27,592 nt of DNA from a virus, in the IMG/VR virus record IMGVR_UViG_3300033151_000191, positions 1 through 27,592 of that record. The stretch is one strand, 5' to 3'. The notes under the pieces are model-generated. The model searched no databases. It was not told the DNA's origin and saw only the letters and a list, made by a program, of their open reading frames with translations. The position numbers and the translations under genes are program-made. Shown piece by piece: positions 8,366 to 26,821 of this stretch (position 1 is its first letter; each line of letters opens with the position of its first letter).

Positions 8366-8498
8366 CAAATAAATTTGCGCGTACTTCATGCAAATTTTGT
8401 ACCAACGCAATATTTTGTATTCACAAATACGCAAAATATTTGTATACGCAAATTTATTTTGTGTAGCACAAAGCCTTTTGCGTGTACAAATATGGTAG

Positions 8499-8527
8499 TG
8501 TACAACCAACACAGTATGTGTTATAAT
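8499..8527 (+). promoter_or_regulatory. Sigma70-type promoter for the replication operon
   Basis: TGTACA (8499-8504), 17 bp, TATAAT (8522-8527). It shares GTAGTGTACAACC and the exact spacing with the promoters at 11938 and 14193. Transcription would start about 175 nt before the primase ATG. Confidence 0.7.
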
Positions 8528-8710
8528 ATATATTCAGATTAACTTTAGTGAGTTATCTGGAGTAGCACTAACTACTTTCTCACCAACAATACTGCGAACC
8601 AACCACCACAGGTACCCTCTTGTACCGAAGTATGTAGAATAGAGCGTGGCGCTTGGCACTTATTGCTAAGCTACGTCTACATTTAGTGGTAGTAGTAAGG
8701 TAATAAAAAT

Positions 8711-10885
8711 ATGGTAAATGCACCAAAATGGATGCAGAACAATGTATTCCCTTTATATCTAATAAACGAAAAAGTCGTGCCACCTAAAGGTTGGCCAACT
8801 AAAGAGTCTAGCGATTACAACTGGAATCAAGATAATATAATTGGTTATGGCATAAGAGGTGGGGACAACCTGCTTATTATAGACATAGACAACAAAGATG
8901 ACCAGTCAGCTACAGCGCAGCTAACCATGCTAATAAATGCAGGGCTTGACGCTGACACCTATATGCAACGTACTAAGTCCAACGGCTTTCATCTTATCTA
9001 TAACAACAAAACAGGTATTGACATAAAAACAAGGGCTGCTTTACCGGCCGCCATAGAACATGGGGCGATGCACGTAGATATACGTGGCTCAGGTGGTTAT
9101 GTTGTTGGCGCGGGTAAGTATCCAGGAGGTACTTATGAGGTAATAAATGACGTACCACCCGCTGACTACGACGACACACAAATGGCTATATTACAATTAG
9201 AAGAGCGCGGCGCTAAGTCACCACCAGCCGACATATCAGCACTACCATCAATTGATGATATGACAGCTTTTATTAACCCTGATGAGCTGACAGTCCAACA
9301 GATGTTATCCGGCTCACTTATAAAAAATGGGGTACGCGACCAGCACTTATTAAAACTATCAGGCTATATCGTAGATAACAACTTATCTAAAGCCCAGGTA
9401 AAAGAGATATTCACAGCGCTTAATATAGAAGGTACAGACTTTAGTCTTGAAGACCTTGTCAGTAAAGTGGATAGAGATAAGCTTAAAACAGCTGATGTTG
9501 ACAACTACTACACGACAAGACTGATATACATAGAGGAGGACAACTCTATATGGGACAGACAGACTAAATTCAATAAGAAGTTCGTGGATATGAAGCTACA
9601 CATACCACAGCGCATACCGTCCGCCTCAGGGAAGACCACAAGAAGCGTCATAGATGTATGGAACGAGAGTCCTAATAGACAGGTGGCACAAGCTATTGGG
9701 TGGCAACCTACATTAGAAGAGACTTTCTACGACGGGCTTGACACTATAGTTAACACGTTTAAAGCTACAGAGATAATTCCATGGGATAAGCCTGTAGACA
9801 TAAGTGATGAAGACTTAGCTGACTACTTTAAGATTATGAGGCTGGTGTGTGATAACAAGGAGCAAACATTTCACTTGATGCTCGGACAGCACGCCGCTAA
9901 GTTACAAGACCTTACATGGAAACCAGGCTGGGGCTTTGTGATTATCACACCAGGCACACATAACAGCGGCTATCGGATAGGTAAAGACTTCATAGCTAAT
10001 GTCTTCGGCTCGATGTTAGGTAATGGTACATATAAAAAGACTATCACGACTGTTGACGTGCAAAGCGGTAGGTTTACAGGTATGCTTAACTCGCTGCTAA
10101 CTGTTATTAACGAGCCGGGAGGCGCGACGGGCAACTCGTTTGGCGCTACAGCTTATCAAGAGAATCTTAAAATGTTATTCTCTGAGAAATCAATGTCGAT
10201 TAAGGAGTTCTATAAAGACCGGGCAGCCGACAAACCTATTTATAGTATAGCACAGATGCACTCTAACTACCATGACGCTGCTAATATAAGTCAGGCAAAT
10301 AAACGTTTTGCTCCTATTATATCTAAGCAACAAGCGCTTAACAGTAACTTCTATGCGGCCACTGCTAAAGAGGCTTTTAATAAGCAGAGCCCTTTAATAC
10401 GTAAGCTGTATAGGCTGTTAATGGATTGGGAGGTACCATCAGAGATAAATGAGGCCGCCGCACCAGACATGGTAGATAGCGCTATAGCTGCCAAGCTAAG
10501 CATCGGTGAGGATATAAACGCTATCTGCGACGCTATAGATGAGAACTTATTAATATGGCAGTCGGACATTCAAACAGTAGCTACTATATCCTTAGCGCTT
10601 AAAGTACATCACAATATAATTAATGCGTCACATGTTAGAAGTATTATGCGTCGGCTGACTGACAATGGGTTAATCAAATCACTCACTAATAGAGCGCGTG
10701 GTTTGCCTGAGATAAGTATGGATGATAACGACACTTACGGTGACATGATAGAATCTCTAACTAAGAGAAAATCTACTGCGACGCCTAGAGTGTTCACTAT
10801 ACGTAACCATGACATCCACGCTAGTAAGACTAAACAACGTGGCTACGTAAAAGATAATTTCTTCCCTAAAGTAGGGAGCAGGTAA
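8711..10885 (+). CDS. Bifunctional prim-pol primase / superfamily 3-like helicase
   Basis: 724 residues. The N-terminal ~150 residues match the archaeo-eukaryotic-type prim-pol fold: LLIIDIDNKDD (metal-binding Asp 58 and 60), SNGFHLIY (residues 90-97, catalytic-type His 94) and HVDIRGSGGYVVGAGK (121-136, third Asp). The C-terminal part looks like the helicase of phage primases: a P-loop-like PGTHNSGYRIGKDF (414-427), followed by a Walker B-like LLTVINE (462-468), then a winged-helix-like end. It would prime and unwind DNA at the phage fork. The P-loop is atypical: Asp follows the Lys and no canonical GxxxxGK[ST] is present. The ATG follows AAGG at a 10-nt spacing. Strand polarity and the ATPase activity of the helicase are uncertain. 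Confidence 0.88.
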   Translation: MVNAPKWMQNNVFPLYLINEKVVPPKGWPTKESSDYNWNQDNIIGYGIRGGDNLLIIDIDNKDDQSATAQLTMLINAGLDADTYMQRTKSNGFHLIYNNKTGIDIKTRAALPAAIEHGAMHVDIRGSGGYVVGAGKYPGGTYEVINDVPPADYDDTQMAILQLEERGAKSPPADISALPSIDDMTAFINPDELTVQQMLSGSLIKNGVRDQHLLKLSGYIVDNNLSKAQVKEIFTALNIEGTDFSLEDLVSKVDRDKLKTADVDNYYTTRLIYIEEDNSIWDRQTKFNKKFVDMKLHIPQRIPSASGKTTRSVIDVWNESPNRQVAQAIGWQPTLEETFYDGLDTIVNTFKATEIIPWDKPVDISDEDLADYFKIMRLVCDNKEQTFHLMLGQHAAKLQDLTWKPGWGFVIITPGTHNSGYRIGKDFIANVFGSMLGNGTYKKTITTVDVQSGRFTGMLNSLLTVINEPGGATGNSFGATAYQENLKMLFSEKSMSIKEFYKDRAADKPIYSIAQMHSNYHDAANISQANKRFAPIISKQQALNSNFYAATAKEAFNKQSPLIRKLYRLLMDWEVPSEINEAAAPDMVDSAIAAKLSIGEDINAICDAIDENLLIWQSDIQTVATISLALKVHHNIINASHVRSIMRRLTDNGLIKSLTNRARGLPEISMDDNDTYGDMIESLTKRKSTATPRVFTIRNHDIHASKTKQRGYVKDNFFPKVGSR

Positions 10886-10912
10886 GTGCCACCTTTGACG
10901 GCATGGAGTAAT
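10880..10912 (+). repeat. 33-nt duplicated leader, copy 1
   Basis: 31 of 33 positions are identical to 11237-11269. It contains TGCC...GGCA, a short stem, then GGAG as the ribosome binding site of the Gp49-family gene. In copy 2 the stem reads TGCC...GGTA, which still pairs through a G-U. Confidence 0.75.
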
Positions 10913-10916
10913 GAAA

Positions 10917-11222
10917 ATGAACGACAATGAAATAGAACAAGAAATAAAAGAAAAAGACCTTACAGCACCCAGAGTTACACCTGAACGCATTAAGGAAGTT
11001 ATTGTATCAGAAGATTATCATGTTTTCAGTGGTAGCCAATTGACTATTTGCTGCTTAACCCTTGAAAACGGCTTTACAGTAAGTGGTGAGAGTGCTTGTG
11101 CAAGTCCTAAAAATTTTGATGCTGAACTTGGTAAAAAAATTGCGCGAGATAATGCAGTAAATAAAATCTGGATGCTTGAAGGTTATCTGTTAAAGCAAAA
11201 ACTTTATGAAGGTCTTGTTTAG
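10917..11222 (+). CDS. Gp49 / Sf6 gp66 family phage protein
   Basis: 101 residues from the ATG at 10917; an in-frame ATG at 10911 would add two. I prefer 10917 because GGAG is then 8 nt away, as in the duplicated leader of the next gene. The segment RVTPERIKEVIVSEDYHV...LTICCLTLENGFTVSGESACASP...FDAELGKKIARDNAVNKIWMLEGYLL matches the phage family typified by N4 gp49 and Sf6 gp66 (Phage_gp49_66) along nearly its full length. The family is widespread in phages and its molecular role is unknown. It lies between two copies of a 33-nt leader, so the unit may have arisen by duplication or cassette insertion. Confidence 0.9.
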   Translation: MNDNEIEQEIKEKDLTAPRVTPERIKEVIVSEDYHVFSGSQLTICCLTLENGFTVSGESACASPKNFDAELGKKIARDNAVNKIWMLEGYLLKQKLYEGLV

Positions 11223-11236
11223 TCTAACAACTGAGT

Positions 11237-11269
11237 AGGTAAGTGCCACCTTTGACGGTACGGAGTAAT
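11237..11269 (+). repeat. 33-nt duplicated leader, copy 2
   Basis: The second copy of the leader at 10880-10912, here placing GGAG 9 nt before the ATG of the dihydrofolate-reductase-like gene. Confidence 0.75.
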
Positions 11270-11274
11270 TAAAA

Positions 11275-11475
11275 ATGAGTAAGATGGAATTTCCAGAAAA
11301 AAGCAAATACAACTACGGTGATGCGGTCAAGAAAAAATCAGGACGAGCTGAGTGGTCAGGAACAGTTGTCGGATTTTATTCGAGCTCTTTGACAAAAGAG
11401 GGTTATGCGGTTGAAAGCGACGCCCATTATGGTACAGTGCAAATATACCCTGTTGAGGCTCTTGAATTAAAATGA
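11275..11475 (+). CDS. dfrB-like: Type B (R67-like) dihydrofolate reductase homologue
   Basis: 66 residues, GGAG 9 nt before the ATG. From residue 14 it follows R67/DfrB almost throughout: [11 protein letters not shown]27, [17 protein letters not shown] and [11 protein letters not shown]67 enzymes are small SH3-like proteins that assemble as a tetramer with one central pore, reduce dihydrofolate with NADPH, and are intrinsically insensitive to trimethoprim. The active-site VQIY (Val66-Gln67-Ile68-Tyr69 in R67) is intact as residues 55-58, and the KK corresponding to Lys32-Lys33 is present. Differences are Thr for Ser65 and one extra residue before the Trp. A reductase would regenerate tetrahydrofolate after the ThyA-family enzyme at 21308. 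Homology is clear to me; catalytic activity is inferred. Confidence 0.88.
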
Positions 11476-11657
11476 AGATAAAGAGTGTAGTAATATACAG
11501 ACGCGGTGTATCTTACAAAGTAGGTTATACTTACGATGGTCGTAAGTTACACCGTATAGAGAAAGACGATAGTGGCTACACAGGCTACACTGAGTGCTCA
11601 AATCTAGTATTTAAGGCACCGAATAACTACGTAATAGAGTACTTAGAAAATGACTAA
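11472..11657 (+). CDS. Unknown 61-residue basic protein
   Basis: Starts with an ATGA overlap on the reductase-like gene, so it is probably co-translated. It is rich in Tyr, Lys and Arg ([20 protein letters not shown]) with beta-type alternation and one Cys. No family is recognised. It ends overlapping the next gene by 8 nt. Confidence 0.6.
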
Positions 11658-11937
11658 AGTGTCGTCGTACTTAGCGCCTAGCGCTAAGTACGTTCATGTC
11701 AAAGGCTCGCTATTCTTTTATGGCGACCAGCCTATTATTATTAGAGACGAGGAGGTAGAACTTACTAATGACTTAAAGAATACAATGTACGTCTATGGCT
11801 GTACACAGTCCAGCAGTTTTGCAGGTAGCAAGATGGCGCAACATAAAGAAGAGCTGAAGAGCGTCTTCAAAGAGTATGATTTAGAGTTTAGCGACGGCTA
11901 CTGGACCAGTTTAAGATTAAAGAAGGTAAATCAGTAG
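11650..11937 (+). CDS. Unknown 95-residue protein
   Basis: The start ATG lies in the end of the previous gene. The protein has a beta-like N-terminal half (YVHVKGSLFFYGDQPIIIRDEEVEL) and a charged helix (MAQHKEELKSVFKEYDLEF). It has one Cys and no membrane segment. No family is recognised. Its stop codon lies within the 96-nt duplicated promoter/leader that begins the next transcription unit. Confidence 0.6.
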   Translation: MTKVSSYLAPSAKYVHVKGSLFFYGDQPIIIRDEEVELTNDLKNTMYVYGCTQSSSFAGSKMAQHKEELKSVFKEYDLEFSDGYWTSLRLKKVNQ

Positions 11938-11966
11938 TGTACAACCGAGTAAAATCTGTTTATAAT
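11938..11966 (+). promoter_or_regulatory. Sigma70-type promoter before the coiled-coil/polymerase genes
   Basis: TGTACA (11938-11943), 17 bp, TATAAT (11961-11966), 50 nt before the ATG at 12017. Part of the duplicated leader. Confidence 0.75.
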
Positions 11967-11985
11967 ATAGGCATACAAAATTAAA

Positions 11986-11999
11986 TTTGTATATACAAA
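11986..11999. promoter_or_regulatory. TTTGTATATACAAA palindrome (copy 2)
   Basis: Lies 20-25 nt after the -10 box and 17 nt before the ATG, so it would sit in the 5' part of the transcript. A bound repressor here could block initiation or early elongation. Confidence 0.55.
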
Positions 12000-12016
12000 A
12001 CTAAAAAGGTGATAAA

Positions 12017-12379
12017 ATGTCAAGCTTAAAAAAAGTAAAAGCCGAACTAGAAAATTGTGCGCTCGGGAGTAACAAAGAGTTAGTAGAAAGAAACGAGACG
12101 CTTAGTCAGATGCTAGTAGTTGCTAGAGCTGAGATTGAAGAGCTTAAAAAACCTGTAAATAAACAAGTAATCAATGAGCTGCGAGTACCTTATAATGGTA
12201 TAATGCTCGATGTTGGCTTTACATTTACGCCGCTAGGTAATGGCGCGTATGATATAGACGTGACGTCTATGACTACTGAAGATGATGTAGCTGTTTTAAT
12301 TGAAGCAGAGGTTGCTGAGCTAGAAGAGGTCGTCATCTCAGCTATTATAACAGGGCATAAAAAAGGTCTTAACCCGTGA
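12017..12379 (+). CDS. Unknown 120-residue protein with N-terminal coiled coil
   Basis: A strong AAGGTGA site and ATG lie at the end of the duplicated leader. Residues 1-45 form a charged heptad-like helix (KKVKAELENC...NETLSQMLVVARAEIEELKK). Residues 50-85 look beta-rich, and the end is acidic with AELEEVVISAI. No family is recognised. The stop overlaps the GTG of the DNA polymerase gene, so it is co-expressed with the polymerase and could be an accessory factor, but nothing shows this directly. Confidence 0.65.
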   Translation: MSSLKKVKAELENCALGSNKELVERNETLSQMLVVARAEIEELKKPVNKQVINELRVPYNGIMLDVGFTFTPLGNGAYDIDVTSMTTEDDVAVLIEAEVAELEEVVISAIITGHKKGLNP

Positions 12380-14184
12380 GACAGGTATATGCTCTCGACA
12401 CGGAGACAGGCCCTTATCCTATGCCAGAAGGTGTAAAAGGCGCCTTTGCCCTAGAACCTTATCGCAAAGAGTTTTACATGAAGTTGTTCGGCTTATATGG
12501 TGCAGGTGTAAGCATAGCAGCTGATGCGATAAACCGCCGTGATAAGATAATAGAAGCTATTACAAAGCTACGAGGTGAGATAGTATACTGTCATAACACT
12601 ATCTTTGACATAGCAGTGCTTATGCGTTATTTAGGCCCTGACCACTACGAGCTACTAGCGAGTATACGCTGGCGTGATACTTCACTGCTAGCAAAATGGG
12701 TTAATAACTCACAATCGTCTGAACATTTTCGCTACTCACTTCGTAACTGCGTAGATAAATGGCTACCTGACAGCGCTGAGAAAACAGAGTTTTTAGAGCT
12801 GAAGGATAATATAGAGGACGACTATAATTACTGGCTCGAGCGCGTAGTAGCTGATTGTAAGCTAACACAAGAGCTAGCTCTTGTGTTAGAAGACTTGTTA
12901 CCGGAAACTTCGCGTCAAGGCTTTATCACTGAATGTCGCTGCTTATGGCCACTGGCTAAAGGGTGGAAGCAAGGCATACTAGTTAATCCAGATAAGGTGG
13001 ACGAGCTAGCTATTATATACCGTGTGAGGGCTAACAAGTTATTAAAAGAGATAGGATTAGACGAAGCTACTCTACGGTCACCTAAAAAGCTACGAGCTGT
13101 GCTGTTCGAAGAGTGGGGCCAGGAGCCTGTAAGCTTCACCGCTAAAGGGGAGCCTAGCACTTGCGCTGGTGATATTAAATACATAGCTCTGAACTCTAAG
13201 GATGATAGACTGCTTAAGTTATTAGAAGCTAAACAGCACTTGACAGTTATTAGTAAGTACGCTAATAGCTACGAGAAAGCTATGCTTTACCTAGGAGAGC
13301 CTAAAATACACCCTAGCCCTAAACTGTTTAATAGCTACACTGGGCGCATGACGTATAACAGTAAGTTATTTAAAAAGCACCAGGTTGGTATAGCTCTACA
13401 TCAACAACCTCGCAAAGCCAAAGAAGTAAAGCGATGTATGGAAGCACCTCAAGGATATAAGTTCATCTATATGGATTTCGCAGCGCAAGAGCTCAGAATT
13501 ATGGCTCAGATGTCCAACGATGAGGCTATGATAAACGCTTTTAATGATAATAAAGACTTGCACGCTGTAATGACTGAGAGTATTTACGCCACTCCTTATG
13601 ACGAGATTGTAGCAGGCAATAAATCAGGTGATAAACGTATAATGGATGAACGTAACTGTGGTAAATTAACTAATTTATCATCTATGTACCGTATAGGTGC
13701 TAAGGCTTTAAAAGCTAAGTTCTTTATAGGTTATGACACCATGATTACACTGCGAGAGGCTACACACTTCTTAAACTCATACAAGAAGTCGTTTAAATGT
13801 ATTCCTAAGTACTGGGAGTCTATTATACGAGCCGCTAAGCGTCAAGGCTATGTAGAGTCGCTAAGCGGTAGGCGCTTTTATCTTAAAGCCAACGATTGGC
13901 AAGGGGAGTCGTCAGCCATTAATATGCCAATACAAGGAAGTGGTGCTGACTTAAGCGAGTTATTAATAGCTTTATTAGATACTAAGTTCCCAGAACTTAT
14001 CTTCCAGGTACAAGTACACGACTCTTTAGTATGGCTTATACCTGATGAATTAAACTCATTAGAACTTAAGGAGTTCGTCGATAGTATCGATTACAATAAG
14101 TATTTCGAAGCTGATTTGAAAGTAGATTTTCCTCTGGACTTCGCGCTAGGCACTAATTTAATGGAGATGAGCCCACTAGCGTAA
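12376..14184 (+). CDS. polA-like: Family A DNA polymerase with 3'-5' exonuclease domain
   Basis: 602 residues, GTG start overlapping the previous stop (GTGA). The exonuclease part has ALDTET (Asp 8, Glu 10), CHNTIFDIAVL (Asp 78) and VVADCKLTQEL (Asp 160). The polymerase part has SYTGRMTY (320-327), motif A MDFAAQELRIMA (Asp 367), the O-helix ERNCGKLTNLSSMYRIG (Arg 426, Lys 430, Leu 434, Tyr 438) and motif C QVHDSLVW (Asp 549). No 5'-3' exonuclease domain is present, as in T7-like polymerases. Leu 434 aligns with E. coli Phe762, a position where Phe, Tyr and Leu types of viral PolA are distinguished. Ser 550 replaces the usual Glu of the HDE motif. The gene should be the phage replicase. Confidence 0.95.
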   Translation: MRQVYALDTETGPYPMPEGVKGAFALEPYRKEFYMKLFGLYGAGVSIAADAINRRDKIIEAITKLRGEIVYCHNTIFDIAVLMRYLGPDHYELLASIRWRDTSLLAKWVNNSQSSEHFRYSLRNCVDKWLPDSAEKTEFLELKDNIEDDYNYWLERVVADCKLTQELALVLEDLLPETSRQGFITECRCLWPLAKGWKQGILVNPDKVDELAIIYRVRANKLLKEIGLDEATLRSPKKLRAVLFEEWGQEPVSFTAKGEPSTCAGDIKYIALNSKDDRLLKLLEAKQHLTVISKYANSYEKAMLYLGEPKIHPSPKLFNSYTGRMTYNSKLFKKHQVGIALHQQPRKAKEVKRCMEAPQGYKFIYMDFAAQELRIMAQMSNDEAMINAFNDNKDLHAVMTESIYATPYDEIVAGNKSGDKRIMDERNCGKLTNLSSMYRIGAKALKAKFFIGYDTMITLREATHFLNSYKKSFKCIPKYWESIIRAAKRQGYVESLSGRRFYLKANDWQGESSAINMPIQGSGADLSELLIALLDTKFPELIFQVQVHDSLVWLIPDELNSLELKEFVDSIDYNKYFEADLKVDFPLDFALGTNLMEMSPLA

Positions 14185-14192
14185 ATCAGTAG

Positions 14193-14221
14193 TGTACAAC
14201 CGAGTAAAATTGGTTTATAAT
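14193..14221 (+). promoter_or_regulatory. Sigma70-type promoter before the peptidase/nuclease genes
   Basis: TGTACA (14193-14198), 17 bp, TATAAT (14216-14221), starting 9 nt after the polymerase stop. It is the duplicate of the promoter at 11938. Confidence 0.75.
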
Positions 14222-14240
14222 ATAGATATACAAAATTAAA

Positions 14241-14254
14241 TTTGTATATACAAA
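14241..14254. promoter_or_regulatory. TTTGTATATACAAA palindrome (copy 3)
   Basis: Placed exactly as in copy 2: 17 nt before the ATG and about 20 nt after the -10 box. Confidence 0.55.
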
Positions 14255-14271
14255 ACTAAAAAGGTGATAAA

Positions 14272-14625
14272 ATGTCGAGATTAAAAATAAAAAACGGCGT
14301 TATTATGCAAGGTTTACAGGTAGCGATGCAGCCTGTATTAATTGAGGCTGCGCAACTGTGGGACGAAGAAGGTGAACAGTTGGTAGTAACCTCAGCGCTT
14401 GACGGCGAGCACTCACCAGGTAGTCTGCATTATTATGGCTATGCGCTAGACTTCAGAACACGTTATTTTGATGACCGCGTGGCTGTCAGGGCAGCTCGTA
14501 TGCTACAAGAGCGTCTAAATAGCACTAGTTTGCTAGGCGACGTCGACACCCACGGCTTATACACTGTAATATTTGAGAGAACCCATATTCACGTACAATA
14601 CAACGGAGTAACCCATGTCTACTAA
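14272..14625 (+). CDS. M15-family zinc peptidase (endolysin-like)
   Basis: 117 residues with a strong AAGGTGA site. The core SALDGEHSPGSLHYYGYALD (41-60) and HIHVQY (105-110) match the peptidase M15 / D-Ala-D-Ala carboxypeptidase fold seen in phage endolysins. His 53 and Asp 60 (SxHxxGxAxD) and His 107 are the expected zinc ligands, and Glu 102 or Asp nearby could act as catalytic base. Such enzymes cut peptidoglycan cross-links. There is no signal peptide, so release would need a holin; the small membrane protein at 23172 is one candidate. Its place among replication genes is odd for a lysis enzyme. A non-lytic role cannot be excluded. Confidence 0.82.
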   Translation: MSRLKIKNGVIMQGLQVAMQPVLIEAAQLWDEEGEQLVVTSALDGEHSPGSLHYYGYALDFRTRYFDDRVAVRAARMLQERLNSTSLLGDVDTHGLYTVIFERTHIHVQYNGVTHVY

Positions 14626-19354: not shown

Positions 19355-20138
19355 ACCGCCACAAACCGCTTCAGCCTTACTTAAACGTGATGGCCAGATA
19401 AGCGTTATGCAACTGATGGAGGAAGCTACAGAGCTAGGCGACGCTGTTATAGAAGACTCTTTAACAGACCAAGTTGACGCTTTAGTAGATTCAATTTACT
19501 TCGCTTACGGCACCTTATTTAAAATGGGTATTAGAGAGCACGTGCTAGATGAGATATTCGAAGTAGTACATAGCGCTAACATGACTAAGGCTATAGGTGT
19601 GAAAAAAGGTCGTGAGGTGGAAGGTGCAGTAGATGCTATCAAGCCTAAAGGTTGGGTTGGGCCGGAAGAACAAATTGCAAAAATTCTAGATAGACCTAAC
19701 AAGTCCATCGTTCTAGAGGGTCCTAACGGTGCCGGTAAATCAGCTCTAGCTAAACACTTAGCTTTGAAGTATAATTTACCAGTGGTGCATACCATAAAAC
19801 CTAAAAATTACCCTCAGCTTGTAGTTAGCCAACAATTGTCTTGTTGTGAAGAAGGGTGCAAAGCTATCTTTGACCGCTGTCAGGCTATATCAGGCTTAGT
19901 TTATAGTGGTGCAGGCGACCTGTTAGACGCTAAGCGCTTAGCTGATGAAGCTATAGTTATATACTGTACAGCCGACGGTGAGCGCGATGTGGACAAGCCT
20001 CACTATGACACAGAGCTAGTAGAAGCGACAAAGGACCAAAAAGCGATAAGAGCTAAGTACGAAGAAGTCATGGGTGTAATACCACATATAAAATTTAATT
20101 TTAAACAAAGTGAATATAGTAGTTTACAACTGAAGTAA
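19290..20138 (+). CDS. Fusion of MazG-like pyrophosphohydrolase and P-loop (d)NMP kinase
   Basis: 282 residues; AGAGGTGATAT stands before the ATG. The N-terminal ~130 residues match MazG-like/PRA-PH all-alpha pyrophosphohydrolases: Glu 44, Glu 45 and Glu 48 in QLMEEATELGDA, then Asp 63 and Asp 67 in QVDALVDSIYFAYG, and the later NMTK...GREVEGAVDAIKPKGW typical of phage members. From about 138 a kinase begins: SIVLEGPNGAGKSALAKHLA (P-loop 144-151), DRCQAISGLVYSG (about 195-207, like the DR..xS motif of thymidylate kinase) and YCTADGERD. The kinase half is short (about 145 residues) and lacks an obvious full lid. Probable roles are cleaving non-canonical or host (d)NTPs and phosphorylating a deoxynucleotide for phage synthesis. 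Confidence 0.82.
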   Translation: MSSTKTRFGKAVEFNREVLGFKPPQTASALLKRDGQISVMQLMEEATELGDAVIEDSLTDQVDALVDSIYFAYGTLFKMGIREHVLDEIFEVVHSANMTKAIGVKKGREVEGAVDAIKPKGWVGPEEQIAKILDRPNKSIVLEGPNGAGKSALAKHLALKYNLPVVHTIKPKNYPQLVVSQQLSCCEEGCKAIFDRCQAISGLVYSGAGDLLDAKRLADEAIVIYCTADGERDVDKPHYDTELVEATKDQKAIRAKYEEVMGVIPHIKFNFKQSEYSSLQLK

Positions 20139-20151
20139 AATGTGATATAAT
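20123..20151 (+). promoter_or_regulatory. Sigma70-type promoter before the acidic-tail protein
   Basis: TTTACA (20123-20128), 17 bp, TATAAT (20146-20151), 60 nt before the ATG at 20211. It overlaps the end of the MazG-kinase gene. The spacer GAAGTAAAATGTGA resembles that of the other rightward promoters. Confidence 0.75.
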
Positions 20152-20210
20152 AGATTTATCTTATAAGAATAAGATTTTTGATTTTAATACAACAAAAGAG
20201 AGAAATAAAA

Positions 20211-20879: not shown

Positions 20880-21311
20880 ATGACTAATCGATTAAGTAAT
20901 GATGCTTATTTTATAGGTATAGCTAAAGCTGTGTCCGCGCGAGCTACTTGTGGCAGACGTAAAGTAGGTTGTGTTATAACAGACGAGTACCATCAAATAC
21001 TAGCCACTGGTTATAACAGCGTAGCATCTGGCTTGCCACACTGCCCAACAGAAAAAGCGTGTCCAGGAGTTAATGATAAGTCAGGCGACTCATCAAGATG
21101 TCAAGCTAGACACGCTGAAGATGTAGCGCTTATGAAGTGCAACGACATCTACCGTATAGAAACTGTGTATGTAACGACACAACCGTGCTCTTCTTGTGTC
21201 CGCCGCTTGTTAGACACTACGGCTAGAACGATTGTATTCAAAGATTCTTATCCAGACCTTGAAGCAAAAGAAATATGGGTAAAAGCCGGAAGAAATTGGA
21301 GACAGGTATGA
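20880..21311 (+). CDS. dcd-type (comEB-like): dCMP deaminase
   Basis: 143 residues; AGGAG lies 9 nt before the ATG. The zinc site is His 78-Ala-Glu 80 (CQARHAEDVAL) plus Cys 103 and Cys 106 (TTQPCSSCVR), the pattern of the cytidine/deoxycytidylate deaminase family. The insertion with Cys 55, Cys 61 and Cys 74 between strands is typical of dCMP deaminases. The reaction dCMP to dUMP supplies the substrate of thymidylate synthase. The stop overlaps the next gene's start (ATGA), so the two are co-translated. If the next enzyme uses dCMP instead, the two would compete for one pool. Confidence 0.92.
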   Translation: MTNRLSNDAYFIGIAKAVSARATCGRRKVGCVITDEYHQILATGYNSVASGLPHCPTEKACPGVNDKSGDSSRCQARHAEDVALMKCNDIYRIETVYVTTQPCSSCVRRLLDTTARTIVFKDSYPDLEAKEIWVKAGRNWRQV

Positions 21312-22099
21312 GATATTATGATTTTGAATATAGTCGGTTAGTAAAGGAAGTGCTGAGAGATGGCGTTAAGCGCAAGACTCGTAACGCTAATACTGTAGCT
21401 AAGTTTGCTACCACATTAGTGATAGACGCTCTAAAGTATGATTCCTTCCCTCTACTTACTAGCCGTAAGATGTTTATAAAAGGTATAGCCGGTGAAATGG
21501 CAGCCTTCCTTGTAGGCCCGAAGAAGCTTAGCGATTTTACAGATAAAGGGTGCAACTACTGGAAAGAGTGGGCTGACGACGACGGCTCTATAAGAGTTGA
21601 CTACGGTAATAAATGGTTAGATTTTAACGGTGTGAACCAGTTAAGAGATTTGGTAAATAAGATAAAAAATGACCCTACTGACCGTAGACTATTAGTTAGT
21701 GGTTGGGACCCATCTAGTCTGCCTAGCTTATCTCTTCCGTGTTGCCATCTGTTGTATCAGTTTTATGTTACAGACGACGGTTATGTAGATATGATATGGT
21801 ATCAACGCTCTGCTGATGTAATGATTGGCGTCCCTAGCGACGCAGTGCTAGCCGCTATATTCTTAATACTTGTAGCTAATTCTACAGGATTAAAACCAGG
21901 TGTTATTACTATGCACTTCGGTGATACCCATATATATGAAGACCATATAAAACAGGCTAATGACTTCCTAACGCTCGACCATGCTACACTCTCACCTGAT
22001 TACGTGCTAGAATCAGGTCTGTTCGATTTTGAGCCTCAAGATTTAGTAATCAGTAACTATAATCCAGGCACGAAAATAAACTTTAAACTTCACAGGTGA
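21308..22099 (+). CDS. thyA-like: Thymidylate synthase family enzyme with Asp at the dUMP-selecting Asn
   Basis: 263 residues from ATG 21308 (GGAGACAGGT upstream, ATGA overlap). The family signatures are all present: Glu 63 (GEMAAFL), NYWKEWAD (83-90), catalytic Cys 146 in LPCCHLLYQF, YQRSADVMIG (165-174) and FGDTHIYEDH (204-213). In E. coli ThyA the next segment is GLPFN, whose Asn177 binds the uracil ring. Here it is GVPSD, with Asp 178 at that place and Ser for the Phe. T4 dCMP hydroxymethylase also has Asp at the equivalent place (Asp179). The enzyme may therefore methylate or hydroxymethylate dCMP. The protein may still be an ordinary thymidylate synthase; substrate is inference. Confidence 0.9.
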   Translation: MRYYDFEYSRLVKEVLRDGVKRKTRNANTVAKFATTLVIDALKYDSFPLLTSRKMFIKGIAGEMAAFLVGPKKLSDFTDKGCNYWKEWADDDGSIRVDYGNKWLDFNGVNQLRDLVNKIKNDPTDRRLLVSGWDPSSLPSLSLPCCHLLYQFYVTDDGYVDMIWYQRSADVMIGVPSDAVLAAIFLILVANSTGLKPGVITMHFGDTHIYEDHIKQANDFLTLDHATLSPDYVLESGLFDFEPQDLVISNYNPGTKINFKLHR

Positions 22100-25481: not shown

Positions 25482-26821
25482 TAGTTATCCCTCCATGTAC
25501 GTGTTCTCCCATCTGGGCCGACCCACTTATCCCCGTCTTTAGGATTCGTCGGAGGTTTATCGCTGATAAGTTCATTAAATAAGGCAGTGTCTAGTAGCTT
25601 ACCGCCATTTTTAGACTCGTTACCTGCAGCTACTAGACGTTCTAGTTTGTTAATCTTAGACATAGCAAGTGCTGGACTATCAGGGTTTAGACCGCCGATT
25701 GTAGGAATCAAGCCTCTAGCCCTAACTATGTCACCATCAGATAAACTACCGACTGTTCCTAAAGCTCTAACCATAGGTGACAAGGTACCTTCTGTATACG
25801 CTGTAGCTGCGGCGTAACGAGGGTCATTTTGTGCTACATTTTCCCAGTTAGATTTAGCTATAAATTTCACACGGTCTTGCCAATTAGCTCCTACACCTTT
25901 ATATAACGCGTCAGGATTGGTGAATAATATCTTCTTATACTCGTCAACAGTAGCGTTTGATATGTTCTGCGACGTTTGTGCTGTTTGCTGCCCAGCTGTA
26001 CGAAGTCTGTATTTACCACTGTCCAGTTCGGCATATGTTGATGGATGGTTACCTGACTCGTCAGAGTAACGCAGCGCATCAGTCGTTTTAAGTCGCTGCC
26101 CTGGCATATTCACATTGACAGTGGATTTACCAGCATTTTTAAGAGCTAGCTGATTAGCTGCAAAACCTGGGTCTTCCAGCCCGGCTAAGTAGTTCTGCAT
26201 AGCTGTCGTGCCTTTAGGTTCATCTTTACCGTATTGTTTAATAGCCATATCTTGCAAGCCCGGAGTATTAAACGCTTCGCGCTGTGCTTGATCTTTTATA
26301 TGCTTATCAGCCCAAGCTGATATACCCTGCTGCTTCTTCTGAGCTTGTTGCATAGACGCTAAGCGCTTATCCCACGCGTTCTGAGCGGCGGCTACATTGT
26401 TATCATTATTACGCATCGACGCTTTGTCATATAGCATACGCTCTAGTAGATTACGCTGTATGTTCTTAGGTCTAGGCTGCATAGGAGCTTGCTGCATAGG
26501 AGCTTGCTGCATAGGAGCTTGCTGCATAGGAGCTTGCTGCATAGGAGCTTGCTGCATAGGAGCTTGCTGCATAGGAGCTTGCATAGGAGCTTGCATAGGA
26601 GCTTGCTGCTTTATCTGGTTACCAAGCTGTACACCTTGAGCGAAACCTTGAGGGTCTTGTTTGGCTAGAGCTTGCGTAGCCTCTGGTGTAGACACTTGCT
26701 GCATAAATCCAGCTATACCTGTGTCAGTTCTAGTAGGTGCTTTACCCGCTAGAATCTCACTGAAGAAGTTATCATACCTTGGCTGTTGTTCTTGTAAGAA
26801 CTGATCAATCATCTCGCTCAT
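25481..26821 (-). CDS. Virion protein with Gln-Gln-Ala-Pro-Met repeats, ejection-type
   Basis: 446 residues; ATGA overlap with the upstream gene. Residues ~70-117 consist of QQAPM/QAPM repeats. After this come a basic helix (NLLERMLYDKASMR) and a long helical, Ala/Gln-rich part. The final ~150 residues include SPMVRALGTVGSLSDGDIVRARGLIP and INKLERLVAAG, a segment I associate with podovirus structural/DNA-transfer proteins. The second of three co-oriented genes with TAATG/ATGA junctions, so they are probably made in fixed ratio and assembled together. Confidence 0.72.
   Translation of the reverse strand: MSEMIDQFLQEQQPRYDNFFSEILAGKAPTRTDTGIAGFMQQVSTPEATQALAKQDPQGFAQGVQLGNQIKQQAPMQAPMQAPMQQAPMQQAPMQQAPMQQAPMQQAPMQQAPMQPRPKNIQRNLLERMLYDKASMRNNDNNVAAAQNAWDKRLASMQQAQKKQQGISAWADKHIKDQAQREAFNTPGLQDMAIKQYGKDEPKGTTAMQNYLAGLEDPGFAANQLALKNAGKSTVNVNMPGQRLKTTDALRYSDESGNHPSTYAELDSGKYRLRTAGQQTAQTSQNISNATVDEYKKILFTNPDALYKGVGANWQDRVKFIAKSNWENVAQNDPRYAAATAYTEGTLSPMVRALGTVGSLSDGDIVRARGLIPTIGGLNPDSPALAMSKINKLERLVAAGNESKNGGKLLDTALFNELISDKPPTNPKDGDKWVGPDGRTRTWRDN
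26476..26604 (-). repeat. 15-nt tandem repeat x 7 plus 12-nt x 2 (QQAPM/QAPM)
   Basis: The unit GCTGCATAGGAGCTT (plus strand) occurs seven times, then GCATAGGAGCTT twice. The 12-nt form lacks one Gln codon, so the reading frame is kept. Copy number is likely to vary. Confidence 0.92.

Follow-up and report, generated by a model that had tools for sequence, protein, structure and literature searches.

The window, i.e., the whole stretch of DNA that was analysed (27,592 nt), is a 27.6-kb viral record of a podovirus in which a small dfrB-like gene lies in a primase/replication operon. According to a motif count, the promoter-like element GTAGTKTACAAC-N15-TATAATA is present in 4 + strand copies (at 8495, 11934, 14189, and 20119) versus 0.02 expected by chance, and these copies likely mark the starts of + strand transcription units. 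The first of the units delimited in this way is composed of the primase, the gp49-like gene, dfrB, and 2 small ORFs:

8495 to 8528, + strand: promoter-like element GTAGTKTACAAC-N15-TATAATA, start of the dfrB unit (motif count)
8711 to 10885, + strand: Prim-Pol primase/helicase-like gene (PF09250, E 5.8e-12)
10876 to 10917, + strand: first copy of a 42-nt leader, at the start of the gp49-like gene (repeat comparison)
10911 to 11222, + strand: N4 gp49/Sf6 gp66-like gene (PF13876)
11233 to 11274, + strand: 42-nt leader directly 5' of the dfrB ATG, 90% identical to 10876-10917 (repeat comparison)
11262 to 11265, + strand: GGAG ribosome-binding-like site, 9 nt 5' of the dfrB ATG (sequence)
11275 to 11475, + strand: dfrB-like coding sequence (DHFR_2), 66 aa, ATG to TGA (ORF list, Pfam, alignment, Foldseek)
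11472 to 11657, + strand: 61-aa ORF whose ATG overlaps the dfrB TGA; no family found (ORF list, domain search)
11650 to 11937, + strand: 95-aa ORF, the last in the unit, with the next promoter-like element at 11934 (ORF list)

The sequence GTGCCACCTTTGACGG within the repeated leader occurs twice (0.06 expected). A search for relatives of the window via this 42-nt leader gave no match, and a search for close relatives via the DNA polymerase gave no true match. Elsewhere in the window, a 119-bp direct repeat with 91% identity (11926-12044 and 14181-14299) takes in 2 of the promoter copies along with the beginning of the gene that follows, and 15-bp repeats (TGCATAGGAGCTTGC) at 26446-26609 encode QQAPM repeats in a minus-strand protein.

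Sequence and structure searches agree on the identity of the 66-aa protein, which the earlier note had described as a homologue of R67/DfrB-type dihydrofolate reductases. Pfam assigns it to PF06442 (DHFR_2) with 79.4 bits and E 1.8e-22 (gathering cut-off 25 bits), R67 chain sequences from the PDB match it with E 1.6e-18 over its residues 6-64, and the top Foldseek matches of its AlphaFold2 monomer model (pLDDT 87.6) are the R67 structures 2gqv and 1vie, with an rmsd of 0.7-0.8 A. The resemblance is thus not due to chance. The model has the SH3-like five-strand barrel of the DfrB superfamily; R67 structures are, however, part of the AlphaFold training set, so that the fold match mainly confirms the sequence match and adds little beyond it. 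As for the NCBIfam exception model for resistance DfrB (NF000331), the protein scores 89 bits, below the curated cut-off of 137 bits, and therefore counts as a homologue rather than as one of the named DfrB resistance alleles.

The motifs on which the earlier assignment was based are all located on the alignment with R67. The lysine, tryptophan, and VQIY that characterize the DfrB superfamily are present, with K32, K33, W38, Y46, T51, H62, and S65 of R67 corresponding to K20, K21, W27, Y35, T40, H51, and T54 of the window protein, and with VQIY (V66-Y69 in R67) at V55-Q56-I57-Y58; the GYAVES segment occupies residues 43-48. Both differences from R67 named at the outset are also found there. 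Thr54 takes the Ser65 position, where 1 of 58 phage sequences has Thr, and the stretch from G35 to W38 (R67 numbering) is longer by 1 inserted residue, which sits just before W27. Inserts between these 2 positions occur in only 3 of ~90 dereplicated homologues (the window, L016, and L231). Judged by its sequence, the window protein is confirmed as a genuine member of the DfrB/R67 superfamily with intact pore and ligand residues.

Relatives of this gene are commoner in phages than reported, and widespread. A tblastn search gave 26 matches among phage records, many already annotated as dihydrofolate reductase, and at least 267 contigs encode a DfrB relative according to an IMG/VR scan, 80 of these contigs being the matches listed. 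Two architectures are observed: some copies are standalone proteins of ~60-70 aa, and others form a domain, often the C-terminal one, within proteins of 150-490 aa that are mostly unrecognised and variable in content. Most phage copies are of the latter kind, fused to long variable proteins and with no folate genes in view, and one of these long proteins also contains a Lar restriction-alleviation domain.

Among 58 dereplicated phage sequences, no substitution is seen at K32, W38, Y46, or T51, while the flanking positions 31 and 33 vary; the main viral search pattern did not include any of the four invariant residues. VQIY is likewise invariant in this set except for one VQVY, although for the IMG/VR matches this conservation is biased because the search pattern contained VQIYP; isolate-phage loci from the tblastn search also keep VQIY, with one VQVY. 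According to previous work, K32 serves in ligand binding rather than in the fold (PMC9835603). In 14 related phage contigs, 10 of which form a single subclade, the median dN/dS of the DfrB gene equals 0.02, indicating strong purifying selection in this related phage subclade.

A maximum-likelihood tree of 92 DfrB cores (57 columns), a placement the earlier note had asked for, puts the window protein in a 26-sequence all-phage clade (99/94), next to standalone phage copies; given the 57 columns and the long window branch, its exact sister is unsure. Integron DfrB proteins form a separate 11-row clade together with Burkholderiales genomes (95/86), and Burkholderiales have been named as the original hosts of resistance dfrB (PMC11662351). 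The suggestion that phages such as this one are a possible reservoir of resistance dfrB is therefore not borne out, as the window copy lies outside the integron/Burkholderiales clade. Standalone DfrB-like proteins of ~71-87 aa from Rhizobiales and Sphingomonadales (KKGRASWRGKIVGWYRTDLT...; L234, L235, L237, L243, L244, and L245) make up another separate clade, apart from the resistance clade. Recent acquisition of the gene from a resistance integron, with trimethoprim resistance as its function, agrees with the ~60% identity to DfrB1 and DfrB6 but is extremely improbable. Besides the position of the window copy in the tree, apart from integron DfrB, no integron or resistance gene is seen near dfrB in the window, the gene and the phage agree in GC content (0.413 and 0.417), and the identity of the window copy to any copy found is at most ~70%. 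Integron origin was rejected on the basis of the tree, the gene surroundings, and GC content. Phage DfrB matches should accordingly not be taken as resistance genes, with the window copy lying below the curated cut-off and outside the resistance clade.

Phage DfrB is also not new as such. Homologues were reported from freshwater viromes (PMC7265639), and 2 phage proteins, DfrB-H3 from a Pseudomonas phage and DfrB-H4 from a Vibrio phage, were tested in 2023 (PMC9835603). DfrB-H4 conferred trimethoprim resistance, while DfrB-H3 did not, which its authors blame on a lack of soluble expression (PMC9835603). From the hosts and the neighbouring methyltransferase genes we infer that the respective phages are PS-1 and Vibrio phage 1.030.O; DfrB-H4 is taken to be L007, and the species of the Methylobacterium homologue DfrB-H5 matches that of L250. 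The homologues known to be active, DfrB1, DfrB-H4, and DfrB-H5 (PMC9835603), all fall outside the clade of the window protein, and the nearest tested homologue, PS-1 (DfrB-H3), falls inside it.

Regarding folate metabolism, the ThyA-family enzyme that the earlier note had seen in the same genome is indeed present, in the last promoter-delimited unit and 10 kb from dfrB:

20880 to 21311, + strand: dCMP deaminase, in the unit of the TS-family gene (promoter-like element 20119-20152; domain search)
21275 to 22099, + strand: thymidylate-synthase (TS)-family enzyme with Asp at E. coli position 177, Leu143 and His147 kept (domain search, alignment)

The Asn177 of canonical dUMP thymidylate synthases is absent from this enzyme, which has Asp there; counting the window, Asp is found in 78 of 80 aligned members of the family. 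The Asn177-to-Asp change switches specificity from dUMP to dCMP (PMC8670742), so that the window enzyme probably acts on dCMP. In addition, alignment shows Leu and Val in place of Asp145 and Ser94, residues whose roles in the T4 gp42 dCMP hydroxymethylase have been described (PMC6400193). Since these 2 residues are missing and His147, kept as in TS, is accompanied by Leu143, the enzyme is possibly a dCMP methylase that releases dihydrofolate; if it hydroxymethylates, no dihydrofolate is made and its proposed link to DfrB falls. The closest TS-family genes belong to the podoviruses Edwardsiella KF-1, Vibrio VPMS1, and Dickeya Amaethon, a group that the other window genes match weakly or not at all (tblastn). 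Records of this podovirus group label the Asp177 enzyme thymidylate synthase; the residue makes cytosine modification of their DNA possible.

Co-occurrence across phages does not tie DfrB to this enzyme. PF00303 is found in 6 of 50 DfrB records: 5 among 12 isolates (3 of them related Schitoviridae) and 1 among 38 IMG/VR contigs, compared with 0 of 44 control contigs selected by random 14-mers (Fisher p 0.46 within IMG/VR). Vice versa, none of 50 contigs of phages with the window's TS type contains PF06442, in a search that did detect the window DfrB, which makes dfrB a sporadic accessory gene. ThyX is likewise not tracked by DfrB. ThyA co-occurrence was dropped as support for a DfrB role on these counts (1/38 versus 0/44, and 0/50 in reverse). 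Thus, the thymidylate-synthase argument for a nucleotide-metabolism role is weak: the enzyme lies 10 kb away in another unit, carries Asp177, and does not co-track with DfrB. FolA-type DHFR (PF00186), in contrast, is present in 5 of 50 phages with the window's TS type versus 0 of 44 controls, a difference that is only suggestive of a reductase role. In one of them (L364:7003-8327) the stop of the Asp177 TS-family gene overlaps the start of the FolA-type DHFR gene, and in L416 a FolA-type DHFR directly follows a 756-aa primase-like gene that occupies the primase position of KF-1. Of 51 DfrB-bearing records, counting the window, none has a FolA-type DHFR. These findings lend modest support to the idea that DfrB takes the place of FolA functionally in the window phage.

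A different gene context is observed in a freshwater subclade of 10 contigs (L025, L029, L030, L038, L041, L064, L065, L088, L093, and L100), where QueD lies 5' of dfrB in 10 of 10 contigs and QueE 3' of it in 8 of 10, most of them downstream of FolE. Several gene ends in these queD-dfrB-queE islands overlap or abut. What passes from QueD to QueE is a tetrahydropterin, a metabolite whose reduced state could be maintained by a pterin reductase. QueD, QueE, and FolE are 7-deazaguanine pathway genes (PMC6884629). No mention of a dfrB-queD/queE pairing was found in a literature search, and no FolA was found in the QueD-QueE slot.

The native role of DfrB proteins has been called unknown (PMC9835603). 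For the window copy we favour, with a probability of roughly 0.6, an accessory NADPH-dependent dihydrofolate/dihydropterin reductase. The observations behind this reading are homology, the predicted fold, the intact residues, the operon position, and purifying selection in the related subclade; we infer the tetramer, the reductase activity, the substrate, and the benefit to the phage. Four copies of the small SH3-like barrel are predicted to assemble around a central pore, where VQIY and K20 would bind NADPH together with a dihydropterin (dihydrofolate) so that hydride passes directly between them. As an accessory gene of the phage primase operon, dfrB most likely serves to bring dihydrofolate, or some other dihydropterin, back to its tetrahydro form during phage nucleotide synthesis. 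Pyrimidine methylation by host or phage enzymes would be the source of the dihydrofolate, and the phage dCMP-type TS-family enzyme would count among these enzymes if it methylates rather than hydroxymethylates. Against the reductase reading stand the lack of resistance with DfrB-H3, the absence of co-tracking between DfrB and TS, and the fusions without folate genes, as well as the window insertion beside W38, which would fall at the dimer-dimer interface.

Alternatively, the domain may be a non-catalytic module for binding or oligomerisation with an SH3-like fold, the dihydrofolate reductase activity of its relatives being incidental to a symmetrical pore. Long variable partners, one with a Lar domain, the location of DfrB near tail genes in one Vibrio phage, and the lack of a stable folate context across phages fit such a module, as does the proximity-based nature of DfrB catalysis, which involves no catalytic residue (PMC9835603). 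We nevertheless consider it rather unlikely, as the ligand residues K32 and VQIY are among the best-conserved positions in very different proteins (VQIY partly owing to search bias), and standalone copies of 60-70 aa have no partner to attach to. Another alternative keeps the catalysis and changes the substrate: the native role would be reduction of a pterin other than dihydrofolate, with dihydrofolate reduction as a by-activity of a promiscuous pore. For the freshwater subclade this pterin would be 6-carboxy-tetrahydropterin, the product of QueD and substrate of QueE, kept reduced for 7-deazaguanine DNA modification. The flanking queD and queE genes with their abutting or overlapping ends and the presence of FolE in 8 of 51 DfrB records versus 1 of 44 controls speak for it, and R67 already binds a dihydropterin ring and NADPH. 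However, DfrB occurs in only 2 of 80 contigs with a close QueD, and the QueD-QueE gap is occupied by various unrelated genes, so that a single inherited dfrB insertion is possible; furthermore, the published pathway requires no reductase at this step (PMC6884629), and FolE is absent from the 27.6 kb of the window. This alternative is therefore unlikely, and queD-queE, rejected as a strong functional link on the reverse test and the variable slot, remains a lead.

A broader proposal, quite improbable at present, is that DfrB proteins originated as pterin reductases of phages (and bacteria) and were recruited into several pterin pathways, which would include 7-deazaguanine DNA modification between QueD and QueE in one freshwater group and a dCMP-methylating TS homologue in the window. 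If DfrB did begin as a pterin reductase, the resistance enzyme R67 would be a by-product of older pterin chemistry. The standalone minimal DfrB of a folate-using phage and the strongly conserved subclade linked to FolE, QueD, and QueE offer testable candidates for the native role of the family.

Compared with known systems, phage FolA-type DHFR (T4 frd-like, PF00186) presumably catalyses the same reaction as the window DfrB with an unrelated fold. R67/DfrB1 (PDB 1VIE, 2RK1; PF06442) shares with the window protein the predicted fold, K32, W38, Y46, T51, H62, and VQIY, with 57-61% identity over the core. The window protein differs from it in its length (66 versus 78 aa, owing to a shorter N-terminal tail), the insert before W38, Thr at Ser65, and its location in a phage operon instead of an integron. 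DfrB1 reportedly requires its N-terminal tail to be expressed in a well-folded form (PMC9835603). DfrB-H3 (PS-1) and DfrB-H4 (1.030.O) are, like the window protein, phage SH3-like DfrB domains with K32, W38, and VQIY (PMC9835603), but they are parts of larger proteins (read here as 184 and 218 residues), whereas the window protein is a standalone one of 66 aa. Systems with a similar arrangement are the 'R67 dihydrofolate reductase' of Podoviridae sp. ctOsX528 (MW202697), which is standalone, small, and located beside replication genes, and the standalone small DfrB-like genes of Sinorhizobium phage phiM9 and Rhizobium Schitoviridae, which also adjoin replication genes. All of these, however, belong to other phage lineages, and their proteins have no insertion before W38.
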